The notes under the pieces: model-generated
What the model saw: only the letters and a program-made list of their open reading frames with translations
Database searches by the model: none
Told to the model about the DNA's origin: nothing
Program-made: the position numbers and the translations under genes
Shown here: piece by piece, positions 491 through 24,010 of the stretch
How the letters are laid out: every line of letters starts with the position of its first letter
Position numbering within the stretch: the first letter of the stretch is position 1
Assembly: GCA_020630395.1 (NCBI GenBank)
Contig: JAHDBM010000030.1
Span: 4,351-37,734, forward strand
Source of the DNA: Flavobacteriales bacterium
Lineage (GTDB): Bacteria > Bacteroidota > Bacteroidia > Flavobacteriales_D > CAJJDF01
Length of the DNA stretch: 33,384 nucleotides
Reading direction: 5' to 3'

Positions 491-889
491 TTACAAACAC
501 TTATTACACAGACCACTAGCGTTTATTTCAAAAGAATTTACTGTAAATCCAGGGATAGCTATAGTAGGTAATTCATCAATTTCTTTACAATATATTTTTG
601 TACAAGAGGTGCATTTAAAATGAATGTGTTGATGTACATGTTCTTCAGAACTACAGCTGGTATCACACAGAGCAAGCTTTTTAGGCTCATTAGGTAATAC
701 AACCTCATGCAAAACTCCTTTATCAATAAAGGTCTTTATAGTACGGTATAGAGTAGTGCGATCATGTTCGCCAATTTCACTTTCAAGAAATTCTATCGAT
801 AATGCAGTTTTATTGTTATCAAAAACAGCTAATACTTTTTCTCTAAAAGCAGTTTGCCTAATGTTTTTATTTAAAAATATTTCTGTCAT
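491..889 (-). CDS. Fur-family metal-responsive repressor, probably zinc (Zur-like)
   Basis: This 132-residue protein has the Fur-family layout. An N-terminal winged helix with the recognition helix around DRTTLYRTIKTF (43-54) is followed by a metal-binding and dimerisation domain. The metal domain has the His cluster H84, H86, H88, H90 directly before C93-x2-C96, and a second C128-x2-C131 pair at the C-terminus. The two CxxC pairs form the structural zinc site in this family. The protein is diverged from the TonB receptor gene across about 75 bp that hold two 7-1-7 palindromes, the operator form used by Fur-family proteins. I infer that it represses the receptor and itself. Zinc is favoured over iron because the receptor and the small lipoprotein next to it are rich in His and Cys. 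Fur or another metal sensor cannot be excluded from sequence alone. Confidence 0.85.
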   Translation of the reverse strand: MTEIFLNKNIRQTAFREKVLAVFDNNKTALSIEFLESEIGEHDRTTLYRTIKTFIDKGVLHEVVLPNEPKKLALCDTSCSSEEHVHQHIHFKCTSCTKIYCKEIDELPTIAIPGFTVNSFEINASGLCNKCL

Positions 890-898
890 AATCTTTTA

Positions 899-913
899 TG
901 CAACATTGTTGCA
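899..913. promoter_or_regulatory. Palindromic operator 1, Fur-family 7-1-7 type
   Basis: TGCAACA-T-TGTTGCA is a perfect inverted repeat of 7 bp around one central base. It lies 10 bp upstream of the regulator's ATG and close to the divergent receptor promoter. The arm matches one arm of operator 2 exactly. Binding by the adjacent Fur-family protein is inferred. Confidence 0.7.
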
Positions 914-932
914 AATAATAAATTTAATGCTT

Positions 933-940
933 TATATTTG
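933..940 (+). promoter_or_regulatory. -10 element (TAnnTTTG) of the TonB receptor gene
   Basis: TATATTTG matches the Bacteroidota -10 consensus TAnnTTTG exactly. A TTG at 909-911 is a possible upstream element. The expected transcript start near 947 lies downstream of the in-frame ATG at 927 and upstream of the TTG at 966, which argues for the TTG as translation start. Confidence 0.55.
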
Positions 941-958
941 CATCACTGTTGCAAATAT
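934..958. promoter_or_regulatory. Palindromic operator 2, overlapping both divergent -10 elements
   Basis: This 25-bp near-perfect palindrome runs from ATATTTGCA to TGCAAATAT. Its 7-1-7 core is TGCATCA-C-TGTTGCA (939-953), with one mismatched pair. Its outer arms form TATATTTG on the plus strand (933-940) and on the minus strand (959-952). A repressor bound here would therefore cover both promoters. The centre lies 40 bp from the centre of operator 1, about four helical turns. Confidence 0.7.
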
Positions 959-965
959 AAGAAAC

Positions 966-3233
966 TTGATCAAAACGATTCTTACATATTTAACTTTGTT
1001 TTCCACTTGCATTTCTATTTCTCAATTATCGGGGGTAGTATATGATGCAGATAATAAACAACCAATTCCATACGCTACAATTGAGTTAGTAGATTTAGCT
1101 ACTGGTATCACAGCTGATGAAAATGGAACGTTTAAGTTTGATATTTCAATCCCTTGGCATTCTAAAGTTAAAATAACTGCAGTAGGTTATAGTGCTCATA
1201 TATTAGAAATAGAAGATAATACTGATAGAGATAATTTAGTTGTTAGTCTTTTTTCTAAACATTACCATCTACATGAAGCAGTTATTTCTGCAGGTACAGG
1301 AATTTTACAAGATTACACCATTACAAATGTTATTTCTGCTCCTATGAGTGAGTTATCTATAATTAAACCAGCAAATGTAGGTGAAGCAATAACAAATTTA
1401 TCAGGAGTGTATAATAACTCCATGGGAAATGGTATTTATAAGCCAGTGATTAGAGGATTATCTGGAATACGTGTATTGTCATTTTTAAATGGAGTTAGAT
1501 TAGAAAACCAACAATGGGGTGGAGATCATGGTTTGGGTGTATCATCAGTAGGTATTGGACAGGTTGAAGTGATTAAAGGTCCAGCATCTTTACTATATGG
1601 TGCTGATGCATTAGGAGGAGTGCTACATCTTACAGATGAAACTTTTGCTAAAAACAACAGTGTTGAGGCAAAAATAGAATCTAAAGTTTCTTCCAATACA
1701 AGGGGGGTAGATAATGCAGGACAAGTGAAAATTAATACTGGAGGAATACGCTTTAATGCCTTTATAAACCATCAAGATCATGCTGATTACCAAATGGGAA
1801 ATGACCTTTTTGTTAAAAATTCGAGATATAAAGGGATTGGAGGTAAATTTTTATTAGGTTACAACAAGAAAAATTGGGTAACTAAATTAGGATATAACAT
1901 TTCTCAATCAAGAATTAGCCTTCCTGGCCATACACACGATAGTATCGTTAATCTCAGTTCGTTTACTTCAACTAATCAAGGGAGAAGAAAATCCAGCCCT
2001 GCACAGGTTATCAATAATCACTTAATAACATTTGATAATCAATTCTTTTTTCATCATGCCGATTTAAAAATTACACTTGGACATCAAGCCAATCAGCTCC
2101 AAGAATTTGAAAAACTTACGATTCCAGAAATTGATATGAGGCTAAATACAACTAATTACTATGCTCGTTATCATTATGGTTTTAAAGATGTAGATTTAAT
2201 TGTAGGAGCACAAGGGGTAATACAAAGAAACATTAACCCGCCTGGTATTCCAGAAGAGCTTATACCTAATTATAATAATATAGATAATGGTGTTTTTGGT
2301 ATTTTAAATGGTAAAAAAGGAAAGCTAAATTATCAGCTTGGAGCAAGAATAGATAATAGGTCAATAACTGTTTATGATGAACCTATTGACACTATGAATA
2401 GAGAGTTTCATTATTTAGCTGGAAATTACTCTGCTGGTTTATCTTATAAATTAGAGCAATTTGCTGTTCGTTTAAATATATCTACTGGTACAAGAATGCC
2501 ACATGTTTCTGAGTTACTATCTAATGGTGTTCATCATGCTACTAATCGTTATGAAATTGGAGTTTTAAATTTAAAACCAGAACAAGGAACACAAATTGAT
2601 ATCTCTTTTGAATTTAATAAGGAACATATAGACTTTATTATTAATCCATTTGTCAATCAAATTAATAATTACATTTTTCTGAAACCTTTAGATTCTACAA
2701 TCGATAATAACCCAGCATATACATATACTCAAACTGACAGAGCTAATTTAATAGGAGGGGATTTCTCTTTTCATTGGCATCCACATTTTTTACATGATTT
2801 TCATTTAGAATCTAATGTTTCATTTTTATATGCTGAAGCAGAGAATAATGAACCAATAACCTTTACACCACAACCAAGATTGACTAATGTATTAACCTAT
2901 AGCTTTGATCATGATGAAGATGCATCATTTAAAGTGTCTAATATCTCATTGCAATATCAGCTTTTTAATGAGCAAAATAGGGTAGTAGACTATGAAATAG
3001 CAACTAAAGGCTATCAATTATTACATATTGGTACAAATGCTAAATGGGAATTAAGTAAGGATTGTGTTATCGATATTGGATTTGGTGTAAGAAATCTATT
3101 AAATGCACAATTTATAGATCATTTATCAAATTTAAAACAATATAATATCCAAGGACAAGGAAGAAATATATACGTGTCTTTAGGATTTAATTTTAATTCA
3201 AAACTAAAAACAAACAAAAACAAAGAACAATGA
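966..3233 (+). CDS. TonB-dependent outer-membrane receptor, probably for zinc
   Basis: This protein of about 755 residues would carry a substrate across the outer membrane using TonB energy. Residues 1-20 form a signal peptide ending in ISISQ, residues 21-95 a carboxypeptidase-D-regulatory-like domain, and roughly 105-225 the plug. The plug has RGLSGIRVLSFLNGVRLE, then WGGDHG and IKGPASLLYGADALGG. The rest is the beta-barrel. His-rich patches (HYHLHE near 99-104, GVHHAT, and HWHPHFLHDFH late in the barrel) fit a transition metal, zinc being likeliest. I chose TTG 966 because a longer frame from 756 overlaps the regulator gene, and an ATG at 927 precedes the predicted transcript start and leaves the signal peptide misplaced. 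The gene overlaps the next by four bases (ATGA) and is probably repressed by the divergent Fur-family protein. The substrate is inferred, not shown. Confidence 0.88.
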   Translation: MIKTILTYLTLFSTCISISQLSGVVYDADNKQPIPYATIELVDLATGITADENGTFKFDISIPWHSKVKITAVGYSAHILEIEDNTDRDNLVVSLFSKHYHLHEAVISAGTGILQDYTITNVISAPMSELSIIKPANVGEAITNLSGVYNNSMGNGIYKPVIRGLSGIRVLSFLNGVRLENQQWGGDHGLGVSSVGIGQVEVIKGPASLLYGADALGGVLHLTDETFAKNNSVEAKIESKVSSNTRGVDNAGQVKINTGGIRFNAFINHQDHADYQMGNDLFVKNSRYKGIGGKFLLGYNKKNWVTKLGYNISQSRISLPGHTHDSIVNLSSFTSTNQGRRKSSPAQVINNHLITFDNQFFFHHADLKITLGHQANQLQEFEKLTIPEIDMRLNTTNYYARYHYGFKDVDLIVGAQGVIQRNINPPGIPEELIPNYNNIDNGVFGILNGKKGKLNYQLGARIDNRSITVYDEPIDTMNREFHYLAGNYSAGLSYKLEQFAVRLNISTGTRMPHVSELLSNGVHHATNRYEIGVLNLKPEQGTQIDISFEFNKEHIDFIINPFVNQINNYIFLKPLDSTIDNNPAYTYTQTDRANLIGGDFSFHWHPHFLHDFHLESNVSFLYAEAENNEPITFTPQPRLTNVLTYSFDHDEDASFKVSNISLQYQLFNEQNRVVDYEIATKGYQLLHIGTNAKWELSKDCVIDIGFGVRNLLNAQFIDHLSNLKQYNIQGQGRNIYVSLGFNFNSKLKTNKNKEQ

Positions 3234-9374: not shown

Positions 9375-9869
9375 ATGAAAATTGGATTACTTTCAGATAC
9401 ACATGGTCATTTAGATGATAAAGTATTTACATATTTCAAAGATTGTGATGAAATTTGGCACGCAGGTGATATTGGAAATATTGAAGTAACGGATAAATTA
9501 AAAGCATTTAAACCATTAAAATGTGTTTATGGCAATATTGATGGAGGTGATGCGAGAAAAGAATTTCCTGAGAATTTAAGATTCGATTGTGAAGGCATGA
9601 ATGTATTAATTACTCATATCGGGGGAAAACCTTATGTATACACCAAAAACATAAGGGAAGAATTAAACGATAACCCTCCAGATATATTTGTATGTGGTCA
9701 TTCACATATTTTAAAAGTTCAATACGATAAAAGACTTAATTTTTTATACTTAAATCCAGGTGCTGCCGGTATTCATGGCTTTCATAAGGTTAAAACATTA
9801 CTAAGGTTTGAAATAACTGCAGGGTCCATAAAAGATATGGAGGTAATTGAATTAGGAAAGAGGGCATAA
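9375..9869 (+). CDS. YfcE/MJ0936-type metallophosphoesterase
   Basis: This 164-residue cytoplasmic enzyme has all five blocks of the two-metal phosphoesterase site: D8 and H10 in LSDTHGH, D32 in HAGDIG, N54 in YGNIDG, H81 in THIGGK, and H109 and H111 in CGHSHI. Length and order fit the small YfcE/MJ0936 branch, which hydrolyses phosphodiesters in vitro with manganese. The physiological substrate is not settled for most members. The gene lies 2 bases after the lipoprotein and 4 before the FecCD-type permease. A shared transcript is likely; a functional link to uptake is not evident. Confidence 0.92.
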   Translation: MKIGLLSDTHGHLDDKVFTYFKDCDEIWHAGDIGNIEVTDKLKAFKPLKCVYGNIDGGDARKEFPENLRFDCEGMNVLITHIGGKPYVYTKNIREELNDNPPDIFVCGHSHILKVQYDKRLNFLYLNPGAAGIHGFHKVKTLLRFEITAGSIKDMEVIELGKRA

Positions 9870-9873
9870 GTGA

Positions 9874-10842
9874 ATGAAAGCTAACAAAACATATAGTGTA
9901 TTATTATTAATATTGTTTGTGTTAATGGTATTATCCATGCTTCTTGGAACTGTTTATAAAGGATTTGAACAATCATTTGATTTATCAAATGCAATGACTC
10001 AGTTAAGACTATCAAGAACAGTTACCGCTATTGTTGTGGGTATTGGAATAAGTGTATCAGGACTATTATTACAAACTCTGTTTAGAAACCCATTGGCAGG
10101 CCCATCAGTTTTAGGAATATCATCTGGAGCTACTTTAGGTGTATCTGTAGGTTTATTATTATTACCTATGCTTGGCATAACGTTATCAAGCTTTTCCGTA
10201 ACGCTATTAGGTATTATCGGTTCATTTTGTATCACGCTAATGCTACTCATCACAACTCGCTACATAAACAACAACAACACATTACTTATTATTGGATTAA
10301 TGCTAGGTTATTTTACTTCTTCTATCATTAATGTTTTATCATTTTATACAGATAAATCTAGCTTGCAAGAACTTGTTTTTTGGGGTTTAGGAAGCTTTAC
10401 AAAAGAAATATCATTAACAACCATTGGCATTTATAGCTCTGTTATTATACTACTTGTTATGTGCTCTATTGTTTTTGTTAAACGATTAGATCTATATCTA
10501 CTAGGAGATAACTATGCGAGAGCTCTTGGATTAAATGTAAAGCAAACAAGATACATCATTATTTTAATCGCTAGTTTATTAATTGGATTAATTACCTCAT
10601 GGTGTGGGCCAATAGCCTTTATTGGCATTGCAGTGCCTCACATAGCCAGAAATATATTAAAAAGCTCAAAACATTTTAATGTAATTCTTATTTCCATTAT
10701 TATCGGGGCAATTTTAGCGCTAGTTTGCGATATTATATCAAGGTTGCCAGGATTAGATCAAACTCTTCCGTTAAATGCAGTTACCTCTATAATTGGAGCC
10801 CCTTTAGTTATATGGATTATTTTTAAAAACAAATTGGTCTAG
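9874..10842 (+). CDS. FecCD-family ABC importer permease (iron-chelate, haem or cobalamin type)
   Basis: This 322-residue protein has about nine to ten membrane helices and the family's diagnostic sequences: LRLSRTVTAIVVG near 44-56, RNPLAGPSVLG, GISSGATLGVSVG, and late in the protein GPIAFIGIAVPHIAR followed by LPLNAVTSIIGAP. FecCD permeases work as homodimers with an ATPase and a periplasmic binding protein, taking up siderophores, haem or vitamin B12. The ATPase gene follows after one base. No binding-protein gene is present here, so the importer must use one encoded elsewhere. The substrate cannot be assigned; iron chelate and cobalamin are the main options. Confidence 0.92.
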   Translation: MKANKTYSVLLLILFVLMVLSMLLGTVYKGFEQSFDLSNAMTQLRLSRTVTAIVVGIGISVSGLLLQTLFRNPLAGPSVLGISSGATLGVSVGLLLLPMLGITLSSFSVTLLGIIGSFCITLMLLITTRYINNNNTLLIIGLMLGYFTSSIINVLSFYTDKSSLQELVFWGLGSFTKEISLTTIGIYSSVIILLVMCSIVFVKRLDLYLLGDNYARALGLNVKQTRYIIILIASLLIGLITSWCGPIAFIGIAVPHIARNILKSSKHFNVILISIIIGAILALVCDIISRLPGLDQTLPLNAVTSIIGAPLVIWIIFKNKLV

Positions 10843-10843
10843 T

Positions 10844-11533
10844 ATGAGTAATAAAAGGTTAAAGTTTAATGGTGTAACTATTGGATATGATAATCAAACA
10901 TTGATTCATAATATTAATTTGGATTTACCTGCTAACAAATTAATTGGCTTAGTAGGTGAAAATGGATCTGGTAAAACAACATTATTCAACACCTTATTAG
11001 GTAATATTCCCTCTTTAACTGGTCAAATAACATTTAATAATCAACCCATAATTGAAGTTGAGAAAATTTTTAGTGTAGTGTTTACCAAAAGAGTTAGTAT
11101 TCAAGGGTTTTCTGGGCTTGACATGTTAAGTATGGCTAAGATTACAAATGCCAATTGGAAAGGGGGTATTTCTCCAGATGACAAAAAAGAAATAATCAGT
11201 TTTGCTAAAACATTAGTAATAGAAAACCTACTAAATAAACAAATTAATGAACTTAGTGATGGACAATATCAAAAATTAATGGTTGCAAAAGCTGTATTAC
11301 AAGATACTCCAATCATATTAATGGATGAGCCAACTGCATTTTTAGATATAAAAAACAAAAAACAAATTAACAATCTTTTATTATCATTGGTTAAAGATCA
11401 AAACAAGACAATCATTGTGTCAACCCATGATGAAATCTTCTGTACGCAATATTGCGAAAACTTAATGGTTATTAAAGAAAATACATTAACATTAACTGAA
11501 TCTAATATAGGTTTGCAAAGTATTTTCGAATAA
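10844..11533 (+). CDS. ABC importer ATPase, partner of the FecCD-type permease
   Basis: This 229-residue cytoplasmic ATPase has Walker A GENGSGKTT at 38-46, signature LSDGQ at 137-141, Walker B IILMDEP at 157-163 with catalytic E162, and the H-loop His at 195 in STHDE. The position normally holding the Q-loop glutamine falls in SVVFTKR (77-83), where I see no Gln. The same region is diverged in other importer ATPases of this phylum, so I do not read it as loss of function. It starts one base after the permease stop and closes the operon. No obvious hairpin terminator follows. Confidence 0.9.
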   Translation: MSNKRLKFNGVTIGYDNQTLIHNINLDLPANKLIGLVGENGSGKTTLFNTLLGNIPSLTGQITFNNQPIIEVEKIFSVVFTKRVSIQGFSGLDMLSMAKITNANWKGGISPDDKKEIISFAKTLVIENLLNKQINELSDGQYQKLMVAKAVLQDTPIILMDEPTAFLDIKNKKQINNLLLSLVKDQNKTIIVSTHDEIFCTQYCENLMVIKENTLTLTESNIGLQSIFE

Positions 11534-19466: not shown

Positions 19467-21140
19467 ATGGAAAAAAAATTAACACCAACTAAACGGTTTT
19501 GGTTATTATTAACACCTGATAAAAAAGAAATTAGAAACATATATGTCTATGCGTTCTTTTTTGGATTAGTCAACTTATCTCTTCCAGTAGGAATACAATC
19601 TATTATTAACCTTATACAAGGGGGGGTAGTTAGTACATCATGGATAATACTTGTCGTATTTGTTATTTTAGGGATAGTTGTAGCTGGAGTTTTACAAATA
19701 TATCAACTTAAAATAACCGAAAATTTACAACAAAAAATCTTTACTCGAGCAGCATTCGAATTTGCTTATCGCATACCAAGAGTAAAACTAGAAGCATTAT
19801 ATAAAAAATATGCACCAGAATTAATGAATCGGTTTTTTGATATTATATCTGTTCAAAAAGGATTATCAAAAATATTGATAGAATTTTCTACAGCATCAAT
19901 ACAAACTGTTTTTGGTCTATTATTACTATCCATGTATCATCCATTCTTTATAGTATTTAGTTTAATACTTATCATGTTGGTTTATTCTATTTTTAAGATT
20001 ACATCTAAAAAAGGATTAGAAACTAGCCTTAAAGAATCTAAATATAAATATTCAATAGCACATTGGCTACAAGAAATTGCAAGAGCTAGAATAAGCTTTA
20101 AGTTAGCTGGAAAAACAGATTTACCCATGGATAAAATGGATAGCCATGTAGATTCATATATAAGTTCTAGAGATGAACACTTTAAAGTTTTAATTAATCA
20201 ATATATTTTAATGTTAGTTTTTAAAGTACTAGTTGCTGCTGGCTTGCTAATTGTAGGTAGTATTTTAGTTATGGAACAGCAAATGAATATAGGGCAATTT
20301 GTAGCTGCTGAAATCATTATACTATTAGTTATAAGCTCCGTAGAAAAACTAATATTGAGCTTAGAAACGATATATGACGTTTTAACATCTCTTGAAAAAA
20401 TCGGGCAAGTTACTGATCTTGAATTAGATGAAAGTACTGGGATAGATATATACGAATCTTCAAATGGTAAAGCACTAAAAGTCGAACTTCAGAATATTGA
20501 ATTCAGTTACCCATATAGTGATAAACTTATTTTTAAAGATTTAAGTTTAAGTATTGAACCTAATGAACGAATCATAATATCTGGAGATAATAATTCTGGA
20601 AAAACTTCATTATTATTTTTACTTGCTGGACTTTATAAAGTAAATAAAGGTAATGTTGTAATAAACAATTTGCCATTAGGAAATTATAATCCTGAACATT
20701 TAAGATCTATTATTGGTGACTGTTTAATGGATGAGTTATTATTTGAAGGAACACTATTAGAAAACATTACCATGGGAAGAAAAAATGCAACATTTGATAA
20801 TGTATGTTGGGCAATAGAAAACTTAAACTTATCAAACTTTGTTAAATCTTTGCCTAACGGACTTGATACCGTTATTTACCCGCAAGGTAAACGGTTTTCA
20901 AAGGGGATAATAGATAAGCTTATTTTAGCAAGAAGTATTGCTGACAAACCCAAACTACTGTTAGTAAAAGATGTATTTTCTTCAATGGTTGGTGATGAAA
21001 GAAAAAAAATAATGAAATTTTTAACTGATAAAGATAATGATTGGACTATGGTAATTGCTTCTAGAGATAAACAGCTAGAACAAATGGTAGATAGAGCAAT
21101 AGAAATTAAAGATGGTAACATAATAGAAAAAACAAATTAA
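19467..21140 (+). CDS. ABC exporter (fused TM and ATPase) with degenerate ATPase motifs
   Basis: This 557-residue protein has about six membrane helices in residues 25-300, then a nucleotide-binding domain from about 338. It has the half-transporter layout of type I exporters, and no N-terminal C39 peptidase. The A-loop Tyr (FSYPY) and Walker A GDNNSGKT (373-380) are intact. The other motifs are not: the Q-loop region reads IGDCLMDELLFEG with no Gln; the signature is FSKGI (477-481) where LSGGQ is expected; Walker B reads LLLVKD (497-502) where LLLLDE is expected; and the switch His is R533 in ASRDK. The frame is uninterrupted and embedded in an operon with HlyD and TolC partners, so it is not a pseudogene by appearance. 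Substrate unknown. Confidence 0.88.
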   Translation: MEKKLTPTKRFWLLLTPDKKEIRNIYVYAFFFGLVNLSLPVGIQSIINLIQGGVVSTSWIILVVFVILGIVVAGVLQIYQLKITENLQQKIFTRAAFEFAYRIPRVKLEALYKKYAPELMNRFFDIISVQKGLSKILIEFSTASIQTVFGLLLLSMYHPFFIVFSLILIMLVYSIFKITSKKGLETSLKESKYKYSIAHWLQEIARARISFKLAGKTDLPMDKMDSHVDSYISSRDEHFKVLINQYILMLVFKVLVAAGLLIVGSILVMEQQMNIGQFVAAEIIILLVISSVEKLILSLETIYDVLTSLEKIGQVTDLELDESTGIDIYESSNGKALKVELQNIEFSYPYSDKLIFKDLSLSIEPNERIIISGDNNSGKTSLLFLLAGLYKVNKGNVVINNLPLGNYNPEHLRSIIGDCLMDELLFEGTLLENITMGRKNATFDNVCWAIENLNLSNFVKSLPNGLDTVIYPQGKRFSKGIIDKLILARSIADKPKLLLVKDVFSSMVGDERKKIMKFLTDKDNDWTMVIASRDKQLEQMVDRAIEIKDGNIIEKTN

Positions 21141-21141
21141 T

Positions 21142-22497
21142 ATGTTAAACATTTCAAATAATAAATTAGCAGGTAGGATAAAACCTGATTCTTATTCTAG
21201 TCTAAACAGAGTAGAAGCAAAAATATCGGGTAAGGTATTTCGAAATATTGCATATGTACTATTTATTTTATTCATTATAATTCTATTTATGCCATGGACA
21301 CAAAACATTAGGTCTACAGGTACTGTAATCACATTAAAACCAGAAGAAAGGCCTCAAAGTCTTAATTCTATCATAGCAGGGCAAATCAAATCATGGTATG
21401 TACAAGAAGGAGACTATGTTGAAGCTGGTGATACTATTTTAAAAATTAGTGAAGTAAAAGCAGAATACTTTGATGATAAACTATTAGATAGAACTCAAAA
21501 TCAAGTTAACTTAAAGAAGCAATCTGTTGTAACGTATGGTGATAAAATAGATGTATATGATCGACAGCTTAATGTGCTAACTAAAGAAAGAGAACTTAAG
21601 CTAAATCAAGCTAGAAATAAATTATTTCAAGCTAAAAATAAGGTTCAAAATGACAGTATGACTTATCTAGCCGCAAAAAACAACTATAACATTGCTCAAA
21701 ATCAATTTAATCGTATTGATAGTTTGTTTAAACAAGGATTAAAATCTAAAACAGATTTAGAAAAAAGAAATAGTAAGCTTCAAGATACAAAAGCATATCA
21801 AACAGAAGCCAGAAACAAGTGGGTAAATAGCCAAAATCAAGTATTAAACTTACAAATTGAATTAAATAATATTGATGTAAAATATCAATCCAATATCAAT
21901 AAAGTTAAATCAGATAAATTATCTACAATATCTACTAAATTAGATACTGAAAACAGCCTTACCAAACTAGAAAACCAATACAGTAACTACCTATTTAGGA
22001 ATGGCTTATATTATATAACTGCACCACAATCTGGCTTTATAACTAAAACAATATCTAGTGGTATAGGTGAAACAATCAAAGAAGGTCAAAAAATACTCAC
22101 GTTAATGCCTAAAAATTACCACTTAGCTGTAGAACTTTATGTTGATCCAATAGATTTACCATTAGTAAAAGTAGGAGAGAAGGTTCGTATTCAATTTGAT
22201 GGTTGGCCAGCTATTATATTTTCGGGATGGCCAAATGTAAGTCATGGTACATATGGCGGAGAAATATATGGAATGGATCAATTCATTAGCGATAATGGTA
22301 AGTATAGAGTTTTAGTAAAACCTGATACGACTGATTATGATTGGCCAGATGCACTGAGATATGGTTCTGGAACTTCTACATTAATCATGTTAAATGATGT
22401 TCCTATTTGGTATGAATTGTGGAGAAGAATTAACGGTTTTCCTCCAGATTTTTATAAAGGCGAAAAGAAACAGCCTCTTCCTAAAATTAAAAAATAA
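21142..22497 (+). CDS. HlyD-family periplasmic adaptor (membrane fusion protein)
   Basis: This 451-residue protein has an N-terminal membrane anchor (about 34-51, NIAYVLFILFIIILFMPW). A lipoyl-type half-motif follows (SIIAGQIKSWYVQEGDYVEAGDTILKI, about 76-102), then a long alpha-helical hairpin (about 120-285, rich in N, Q, K and L, such as KNKVQNDSMTYLAAKNN and SKTDLEKRNSKLQ). The second lipoyl half has YYITAPQSGFITKTISSGIGETIKEG, and a beta-barrel segment VDPIDLPLVKVGEKVRIQFDGWP precedes the C-terminal region. It connects the inner-membrane ABC protein to the TolC channel. One base separates it from the ABC gene and one base overlaps the TolC gene. Confidence 0.93.
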   Translation: MLNISNNKLAGRIKPDSYSSLNRVEAKISGKVFRNIAYVLFILFIIILFMPWTQNIRSTGTVITLKPEERPQSLNSIIAGQIKSWYVQEGDYVEAGDTILKISEVKAEYFDDKLLDRTQNQVNLKKQSVVTYGDKIDVYDRQLNVLTKERELKLNQARNKLFQAKNKVQNDSMTYLAAKNNYNIAQNQFNRIDSLFKQGLKSKTDLEKRNSKLQDTKAYQTEARNKWVNSQNQVLNLQIELNNIDVKYQSNINKVKSDKLSTISTKLDTENSLTKLENQYSNYLFRNGLYYITAPQSGFITKTISSGIGETIKEGQKILTLMPKNYHLAVELYVDPIDLPLVKVGEKVRIQFDGWPAIIFSGWPNVSHGTYGGEIYGMDQFISDNGKYRVLVKPDTTDYDWPDALRYGSGTSTLIMLNDVPIWYELWRRINGFPPDFYKGEKKQPLPKIKK

Positions 22498-23903
22498 TGA
22501 ACAGTAGCTTAATATATAAAGTATACATCCTTCTGTTTTTAATTTCAAATACTATTGGATACAGTCAAGATTCAATTTCAGTAAATGAATTAAAATATAA
22601 CGACTATCTGGATATTGTAAAAAAACATCATCCGATAAGTACTCAAGCTAATCTTACTAAAGAATCTGGAGCAATGTTGGTTAGAAAAGCAAGAGGAGCT
22701 TTTGATCCAACTTTAGAAGGTGGAGTTACACAAAAATATTTTGATGATAAAAAATATTACAGTTACCTAAATGCTGGCTTAGAAATTCCTACATGGTATG
22801 GCGTAACTTTAAATGGTGGGTATAATAATAATGAAGGAACAAGGCTAAGCAATGAATCATACACTCCTTCTTTAGGACTATGGAATGCTGGTATAGAAGT
22901 AAACCTTGGTCAAGGTCTATTTATAGATCAAAGAAGAGCTGATTTAAAACAAGCTAAAATATTTGAAAACAGTACTGAACTCGAGCAAAGATTAATGATT
23001 AATAAATTATTATTTGATGCATCTACAGCTTATTTTGAATGGTATAACACTTATTTAAAAGTTATCTTGTATGAAGATGCTGTTACAGTTGCTTTAGATA
23101 GACTAGACAACACAAAACAAAGTGCTATATTAGGCGACAAACCATTTGTAGATACGCTCAAAGCTTACATTCAATTACAAGATAGATCGGTAAAATTAGA
23201 AGCCAATAAATTAAAACTACAAAATAAAAGAGCCTTATTAAACACTTATTTATGGCAAAATGGAAATGTTCCATTACAATTGAAAAAAAATACTATTCCC
23301 GAAGAAATAAATAATATTATTGATACAACCAAACTAAACAAATTAAGCATAGATAGTATTGTTAATGGTCACCCTGAAATTTTAATTGCTAATAATAATA
23401 TAGAAGTTAGTAGAATTGATTACAGACTAAAAAGGGATAAACTTAAGCCAAAAGCAAAGCTAAAATACAATGCATTGTCTGCATATGACGCTAATAACAT
23501 AGTTAGTGAATATAATATGAACGATTATAATTGGGGAGCATCTATAAGTTATCCATTATTCACACGAAAAGAAAGAGCGAATTCAAGATTAGCTAAAATT
23601 AAATATATGCAAGCAGAAGCCAAACAAGCTGATAAAAAAGCAACTGTAGAGTACAAAGTTATTGCTGCTTATAACAATAAAAACAATTTGATAGATCAAC
23701 TTATATTAACAGATCAAATGGTAAATAGTTATACCGAATTATATGATGCTGAACTAAAGTTATTTAATATTGGCGAAAGCTCTATGTTTTTGGTAAACTT
23801 AAGGGATCAAAATCGAATCAATGCTGAACTAAAGTATATCAATATGGCTTATGATAAACTATACGCAGATGTATTATACAAATATCAAACATTTGGTTTT
23901 TAA
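22497..23903 (+). CDS. TolC-family outer-membrane efflux channel
   Basis: This 468-residue protein has a signal peptide (IYKVYILLFLISNTIGYSQ) and two repeats of outer-membrane-efflux type, each with long helices. Examples are YLDIVKKHHPISTQANLTKES at the N-terminus of the mature protein, and in the second repeat VNGHPEILIANNNIEVSRIDYRLKRDKLKPKAKL and LFTRKERANSRLAKIKYMQAEAKQADKK. The end SMFLVNLRDQNRINAELKYINMAYDKLYADVLYKY fits the family. It would form the trimeric exit duct of the complex. Its ATG overlaps the HlyD stop by one base, and its stop overlaps the following micro-protein start (TAATG). Confidence 0.92.
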   Translation: MNSSLIYKVYILLFLISNTIGYSQDSISVNELKYNDYLDIVKKHHPISTQANLTKESGAMLVRKARGAFDPTLEGGVTQKYFDDKKYYSYLNAGLEIPTWYGVTLNGGYNNNEGTRLSNESYTPSLGLWNAGIEVNLGQGLFIDQRRADLKQAKIFENSTELEQRLMINKLLFDASTAYFEWYNTYLKVILYEDAVTVALDRLDNTKQSAILGDKPFVDTLKAYIQLQDRSVKLEANKLKLQNKRALLNTYLWQNGNVPLQLKKNTIPEEINNIIDTTKLNKLSIDSIVNGHPEILIANNNIEVSRIDYRLKRDKLKPKAKLKYNALSAYDANNIVSEYNMNDYNWGASISYPLFTRKERANSRLAKIKYMQAEAKQADKKATVEYKVIAAYNNKNNLIDQLILTDQMVNSYTELYDAELKLFNIGESSMFLVNLRDQNRINAELKYINMAYDKLYADVLYKYQTFGF

Positions 23904-24010
23904 TGAGTAAAAAGAAAAAATGTTGTAAAAAAAAATGCTGTAAACAATACAAGGAAAAGAAAAAAGACTATTGCAAAAAATGTCCTAAAACCTGTAAGAA
24001 GTGTAACTAG
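23903..24010 (+). CDS. 35-residue Lys/Cys-rich micro-protein, last gene of the export operon
   Basis: An ATG at 23903 shares its A with the TolC stop (TAATG) and opens 35 codons ending at TAG 24008-24010. The peptide has 17 Lys and 8 Cys. It begins MSKKKKCCKKKCCKQY, with a second half carrying C24-x2-C27-P and C31-x2-C34. The paired CC, CC, CxxC, CxxC spacing is like a small metal- or disulfide-binding module. I recall no characterised member. It has no signal peptide in the usual sense. Coupling to TolC translation, and a stop overlapping only by four bases the convergent AI-2E gene, favour a real gene over chance. It could be a substrate of the exporter, a metal-binding accessory, or a cytoplasmic redox or metal buffer. 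Confidence 0.65.
   Translation: MSKKKKCCKKKCCKQYKEKKKDYCKKCPKTCKKCN

Follow-up and report, generated by a model that had tools for sequence, protein, structure and literature searches.

The stretch of DNA analysed here, referred to as the window, spans 33,384 nucleotides of a Flavobacteriales bacterium contig and carries a very short lysine- and cysteine-rich frame at the end of an exporter operon. The frame is preceded by genes for a TetR-type regulator, an ABC exporter, an HlyD and a TolC, and is met from the other side by a convergent AI-2E gene. The features of this region are:

19467 to 21140, plus strand: ABC exporter of the host operon
21142 to 22497, plus strand: HlyD-type membrane fusion protein, also in the host operon
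22497 to 23903, plus strand: outer membrane factor of the TolC type; its stop codon and the microprotein start overlap (TAATG), and its operon is the probable host without being a functional partner
23903 to 24010, plus strand: Lys/Cys microprotein gene, 35 aa, with CC-x10-C-x2-CP and, in addition, one further CC and one further CxxC
23936 to 23986, plus strand: codons of the core motif, CCKQYKEKKKDYCKKCP, from C12 to P28, with the Cys spacing of the FhuF [2Fe-2S] site (compared with E. coli FhuF, PMC8068687)
24007 to 25062, minus strand: AI-2E gene, convergent

Translation of 23903 to 24010 on the plus strand gives MSKKKKCCKKKCCKQYKEKKKDYCKKCPKTCKKCN, a frame of 35 aa with stops on both sides, and bears out the composition given in a preliminary description of this DNA: 17 Lys and 8 Cys, the latter in regular CC, CC, CxxC and CxxC spacing (C7C8, C12C13, C24xxC27 and C31xxC34). 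The two overlaps claimed there are also present in the ORF coordinates, as the last base of the tolC stop TAA is the A of the microprotein ATG (a 1-base overlap) and the microprotein TAG overlaps the convergent AI-2E frame by 4 nt. The further statement that the frame is too short for usual gene callers holds only in that it lies at the edge of what they report; its 108 nt exceed their usual floor of 90 nt. An AlphaFold model of the window peptide, with a mean pLDDT of 69 and a single helix at residues 10-18, is too weak for use.

The position behind ABC, HlyD and TolC had been read as pointing to exporter cargo, a metal-binding protein or an accessory, and of these only the metal-type Cys spacing is supported. 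A cargo or accessory of the exporter would agree with the overlap of the start with the tolC stop, which implies co-translation in the window genome, but it is very improbable given that no other family member lies near tolC and that the hlyD-tolC orthologues lack the frame in four of five genomes of the same family (G001, G002, G003 and G005), the very place where a short Cys/Lys frame had been expected. In G001, which belongs to the same genus, the adjacent HlyD and TolC are 63% and 48% identical to those of the window, and the operon is therefore very likely orthologous. TolC relatives were also sought in 150 related genomes, and the frame is absent from the DNA behind all of the 29 best that were read, the window's own aside; conversely, no tolC is found ahead of any of 40 other family members examined. 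The linkage to exporter genes that would be expected of a type I secretion cargo or accessory is not conserved, and a conserved tolC linkage was rejected as both orthologous and other tolC loci lack the frame. It had been proposed that homologous loci lacking the frame, with no conservation of the cysteines, would speak against the gene; such tolC loci exist and tell against the tolC linkage only, since the Cys positions are kept wherever the microprotein gene is located. Within the sample the location behind tolC is private to the window genome and an accident of that genome. The microprotein is probably co-translated with tolC there through the stop-start overlap, and its copy is presumably regulated like the tolC operon, which would act as a host of the gene and not as a partner. 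Another tiny metal-site-like gene added to a tolC operon is seen at locus L005 of genome G140, where a short Cys protein of a different kind (MLKKGDLPTKICLTCEKPFTWRKKW...CSERCRRNK), which we take to be DUF2256-like, begins a few nt after tolC.

The microprotein belongs to a wider family of about 45 aa with the form KKKxCC-x2-[YF]K-x(4-6)-C-x2-CP. The degenerate DNA pattern CC-xx-[YF]K-x(1-7)-C-xx-CP matches 61 of 150 relatives, in almost every case at a single site in the genome, and the reversed pattern used as control gives 1 match. When genomes spread over the phylum were sampled, with the class split counted by hand, the family was found in 44 of 98 further genomes belonging to the class and in 6 of 296 genomes of other classes, and these 6 matches look like chance. 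A pattern scan of named genomes, with counts to be read as "at least", includes Fluviicola, Crocinitomicaceae, Marinoscillum, Flammeovirga and Fulvivirga among the matches listed. The frames at the 41 loci that were read vary at the N-terminus and agree in a constant tail, KKKxCCKK[YF]KKKGxxCKKCPK; C12, C13, K17, C24, C27 and P28 (window numbering) are invariant in 41 of 41, an invariance that is partly built in, as the selecting pattern demands the four Cys, the K and the P, though not the Lys context or the Y/F. The spacing from CC to the next C varies across the family between x8, x9 and x10.

A 28-residue Cys core recurs at other loci in four genomes of the same family, with pS of about 1 and pN of 0.04-0.14. 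The excess of synonymous over nonsynonymous change suggested as a check on the frame is seen here, with a pooled pN/pS of 0.083 (28-codon core, window plus four same-family genomes, silent sites saturated) and a value of 0.056 for five sequences of another genus; the estimates are approximate owing to short sequences and few silent sites, and their direction is clear. The substitution pattern shows a frame evidently under purifying selection. As the core recurs at other loci with this pN/pS, and given 61 pattern matches against 1, the frame is not a chance occurrence, and the earlier claim that it is coding is upheld. A spurious or decaying frame, as its low-complexity, AAA/TGT-rich sequence might suggest, is scarcely credible in the face of the pN/pS of 0.083 and of cysteines conserved at unlinked loci. 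Judged by its sequence, the 35-residue frame is a genuine gene.

The family is not easily reached by standard resources. Pfam and NCBIfam scans of the 41 members returned no family model describing the microprotein, a search of PDB sequences with the family profile gave no match, and a related-locus search with the family alignment gave no tblastn-confirmed match, probably due to low complexity. The letters of the motif were not found in any paper in a literature search. No neighbours are conserved across families except for lineage-specific synteny. In G001, the microprotein (locus L076) has a GTG start, precedes cysD/cysN-like genes and carries three CC-KKK units where the window copy has two, and the N-terminal CCKKK unit is for this reason considered repeat-like. 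The CCKKYKKK...CKKCP tail is also present in records labelled outside Bacteroidota, namely L250, from a MAG labelled as a euryarchaeote, and L221 and L238, labelled Marinimicrobia; in L250 the tail is part of a frame of 88 residues that also has zinc-ribbon-like CxxC pairs.

The genomic context in sister genomes leads away from the exporter and to a second block of the window:

9375 to 9869, plus strand: phosphoesterase, 71-74% identical in sister genomes, directly preceding the microprotein in G003, G004 and G005
9874 to 10842, plus strand: FecCD-type iron/siderophore permease, 53-58% identity, 3' of the microprotein in G003 and G004
10844 to 11533, plus strand: FecCD-type transporter ATPase, 44-49% identity

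In G003 and G004 the microprotein gene follows the phosphoesterase by about 10 nt and is itself followed, after about 20 nt, by the FecCD permease and its ATPase, and in G005 it begins 2 nt after the phosphoesterase with one other gene before FecCD. The window block (9375-11533), which holds the only FecCD found in the window's genome, is without the microprotein, its phosphoesterase and permease being 4 nt apart; the microprotein gene is 13 kb away behind tolC. The orthologous block of G001 also lacks it, the gene being on another contig ahead of the cysD/cysN-like genes, and in G002 it is apparently absent. Within the window's family the gene may either have moved as a unit or have been inserted separately in each lineage, and the window gene would have been moved from beside a FecCD iron-transport operon or regained away from it. 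Across the wider sample, FecCD is present in 50 of the 61 genomes that have the microprotein and in 66 of the 89 that lack it (counted by hand), so that co-occurrence with FecCD was rejected. Because presence of the gene does not track FecCD, a strict role in siderophore import is unsupported and a more general role in iron or Fe-S metabolism is favoured. At the left end of the window, which looks like a metal uptake locus, a Fur-family-like regulator frame (491-889, minus strand) lies beside and overlaps a TonB-dependent receptor frame (756-3233, plus strand), both named by eye.

Two palindromes precede members of the family: box A, TTAGAATnATTCTAA, and box B, ATACC-N8-GGTAT, with the extended form ATACC-N8-GGTATTG. 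Many members have TTAGAATnATTCTAA directly after a TAnnTTTG-like -7 element ahead of the start codon, others have ATACC-N8-GGTATTG and some have both. Of 36 members from outside the window's family, 32 have at least one box in the 120 bp upstream; among control ORFs of the same loci, box A (up to 2 mismatches) is found in 5/392 and box B (up to 1 mismatch) in 6/392, several of these controls being divergent genes that share the intergenic region. A box is also seen in 91 of 116 further distinct loci, some of them closely related to each other or to the first set. Exact genome-wide matches to ATACC-N8-GGTATTG in four genomes number eight: three at sufA-sufB, three at imelysin/DUF4856 genes, one at the microprotein and one inside a coding region, the domain identities of the box-marked suf and imelysin-type genes having been checked. 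In G099, TTAGAATnATTCTAA is present at sufA-sufB and sufS, and one box or both are present at many suf (sufA) promoters within the order. Outside the window's family, most members have a stand-alone promoter region with the palindromes of suf and imelysin-type iron genes. Within that family, all five members, the window copy included, are without either palindrome, and no iron boxes were found near the window copy. From the shape of the sites, it may be guessed that TTAGAATnATTCTAA is bound by a DtxR/Fur-like and ATACC-N8-GGTATTG by an Rrf2/IscR-like regulator; 117 of the 150 relatives, counting the window's genome, encode a DtxR-type repressor domain. At locus L126 of G105 (about 1440-1905), both palindromes lie ahead of a 120-residue Cys-containing protein (MCHYKTISNNSFGCLIQCKNCEQ...), possibly a further member of the iron/Fe-S regulon.

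A short frame near a transcription start, under iron-type boxes and in two genomes directly 5' of FecCD, could also be pictured as a leader peptide that responds to iron, or as a regulatory upstream frame, its translation controlling the gene that follows. This is quite improbable, as the downstream gene varies by lineage and is often distant or convergent, and conservation of the core extends to the amino-acid sequence itself, beyond what translation alone would call for.

The strongest likeness to a described protein is to the C-terminal end of FhuF, in which CC-x10-C-x2-C binds an unusual [2Fe-2S] cluster (PMC8068687). The window peptide (CC-KQYKEKKKDY-C-KK-C) has this spacing exactly, and its relatives have x8 or x9. 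E. coli FhuF, which is Fur-controlled (PMC8068687), ends in RRTCCQRYRLPDVQQCGDCTLK (RRTCC-QRYRLPDVQQ-CGDC), and the FhuF-type tails of Pseudoalteromonas (RIMCCLRHKLPNTPMCTICP), Caballeronia (ARRVCCVRYEIPGETQLCASCP) and a Rhizobium (KRKVCCLRYLIPSLKLCGTCP) agree. In the NCBIfam scan, 22 of the 41 members match TIGR03950 (siderophore ferric iron reductase), with a best E of 5e-4; the window copy matches the last 26 profile positions with an E of 0.18 and 11.6 bits, against a cut-off of 137.9 bits. None of 42 scrambled controls matches TIGR03950, 21 of them with Cys fixed, and thus the residues around the cysteines matter as well. No match to Pfam FhuF_C (PF11575) was obtained among the 41 members, and the microprotein reaches the curated cut-off of neither TIGR03950 nor PF11575. 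As it is below all cut-offs and, at 35 aa, without the FhuF body of about 240 residues with its siderophore-binding domain, the microprotein was rejected as a FhuF. A PF11575 search of the 150 relatives returned nearly all noise, with two matches above the cut-off, neither a full FhuF. In G124, a 56-codon open frame with CARKTCCIDYLAPSAPFICSTC (L116/L329) lies above the Pfam FhuF_C cut-off, and no full FhuF is evident in that genome.

The microprotein therefore shares with FhuF (PF11575/TIGR03950) the CC-x10-C-x2-C of the window copy, basic residues before the CC, x[KR][YFH] after it and often CxxCP, but has no four-helix palm-like domain, is Lys-rich at 35-60 aa and has a family spacing of x8-x10. 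The likeness rests on about 20 residues, far under the TIGR03950 cut-off, and may have arisen by convergence. Small [2Fe-2S] ferredoxins of the plant/vertebrate type resemble the microprotein in having four Cys and as possible one-electron carriers, whereas the microprotein lacks the ferredoxin fold, is far shorter and has a vicinal CC in place of CxxC, a contrast also drawn for FhuF (PMC8068687).

Bacterial metallothioneins and small zinc-ribbon proteins are likewise small and high in Cys, and a Zn- (or Cu-) binding microprotein, with CC/CxxC as a Zn knuckle or metallothionein-like buffer and a Lys body binding nucleic acid or another polyanion, has to be weighed. The CC, CxxC and high Lys would fit Zn sites too, the extra CC/CxxC pairs in the window's family (as many as three CC units in G001) are as expected of a metal buffer, and in L250, from an archaeal MAG, the motif is fused to an N-terminal part of zinc-ribbon type. 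This reading is considered unlikely, though not negligible: the spacing and the flanking Tyr and basic residues fit FhuF and no named Zn finger, the promoter boxes are common to suf and imelysin-type genes, and the Pfam and NCBIfam scans of the 41 members matched no zinc-ribbon or metallothionein model. A fixed CC...CxxCP core, Lys-richness and iron-type boxes in the family further set the microprotein apart from these proteins.

Based on the family, the selection, the boxes shared with suf and imelysin genes, the FhuF-like core and the FecCD context, the favoured reading, with a probability of roughly 0.6, is that of a working gene whose product is a small metal-binding protein in iron or iron-sulphur homeostasis, a free-standing counterpart of FhuF_C. 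We infer both the metal binding and the function. C12, C13, C24 and C27 would hold a [2Fe-2S] cluster (or iron), while the polylysine body would dock the microprotein on an acidic partner or an anionic ferric chelate. It would be made when iron or Fe-S supply runs short, as a carrier of electrons, of iron or of a cluster, and its most likely task would be the release or distribution of newly imported iron.

At somewhat less than even odds, the family may represent widespread, undescribed iron-sulphur microproteins, each a FhuF tail alone, among the smallest Fe-S carriers, wired into the suf/iron regulon and mobile between operons. Such a protein is easily overlooked by family libraries, as both Pfam and NCBIfam are without a model. 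To our knowledge, the iron biology of Bacteroidota is sparsely described. The vicinal-Cys [2Fe-2S] site is hard to study as FhuF is unstable, and the microprotein would, if this is true, be a minimal natural model of it. A conserved, single-copy, 45-residue protein with the FhuF cluster motif, and with promoter signals in common with Fe-S cluster assembly, would then be a missing small component of the Fe-S/iron pathway of Bacteroidota.
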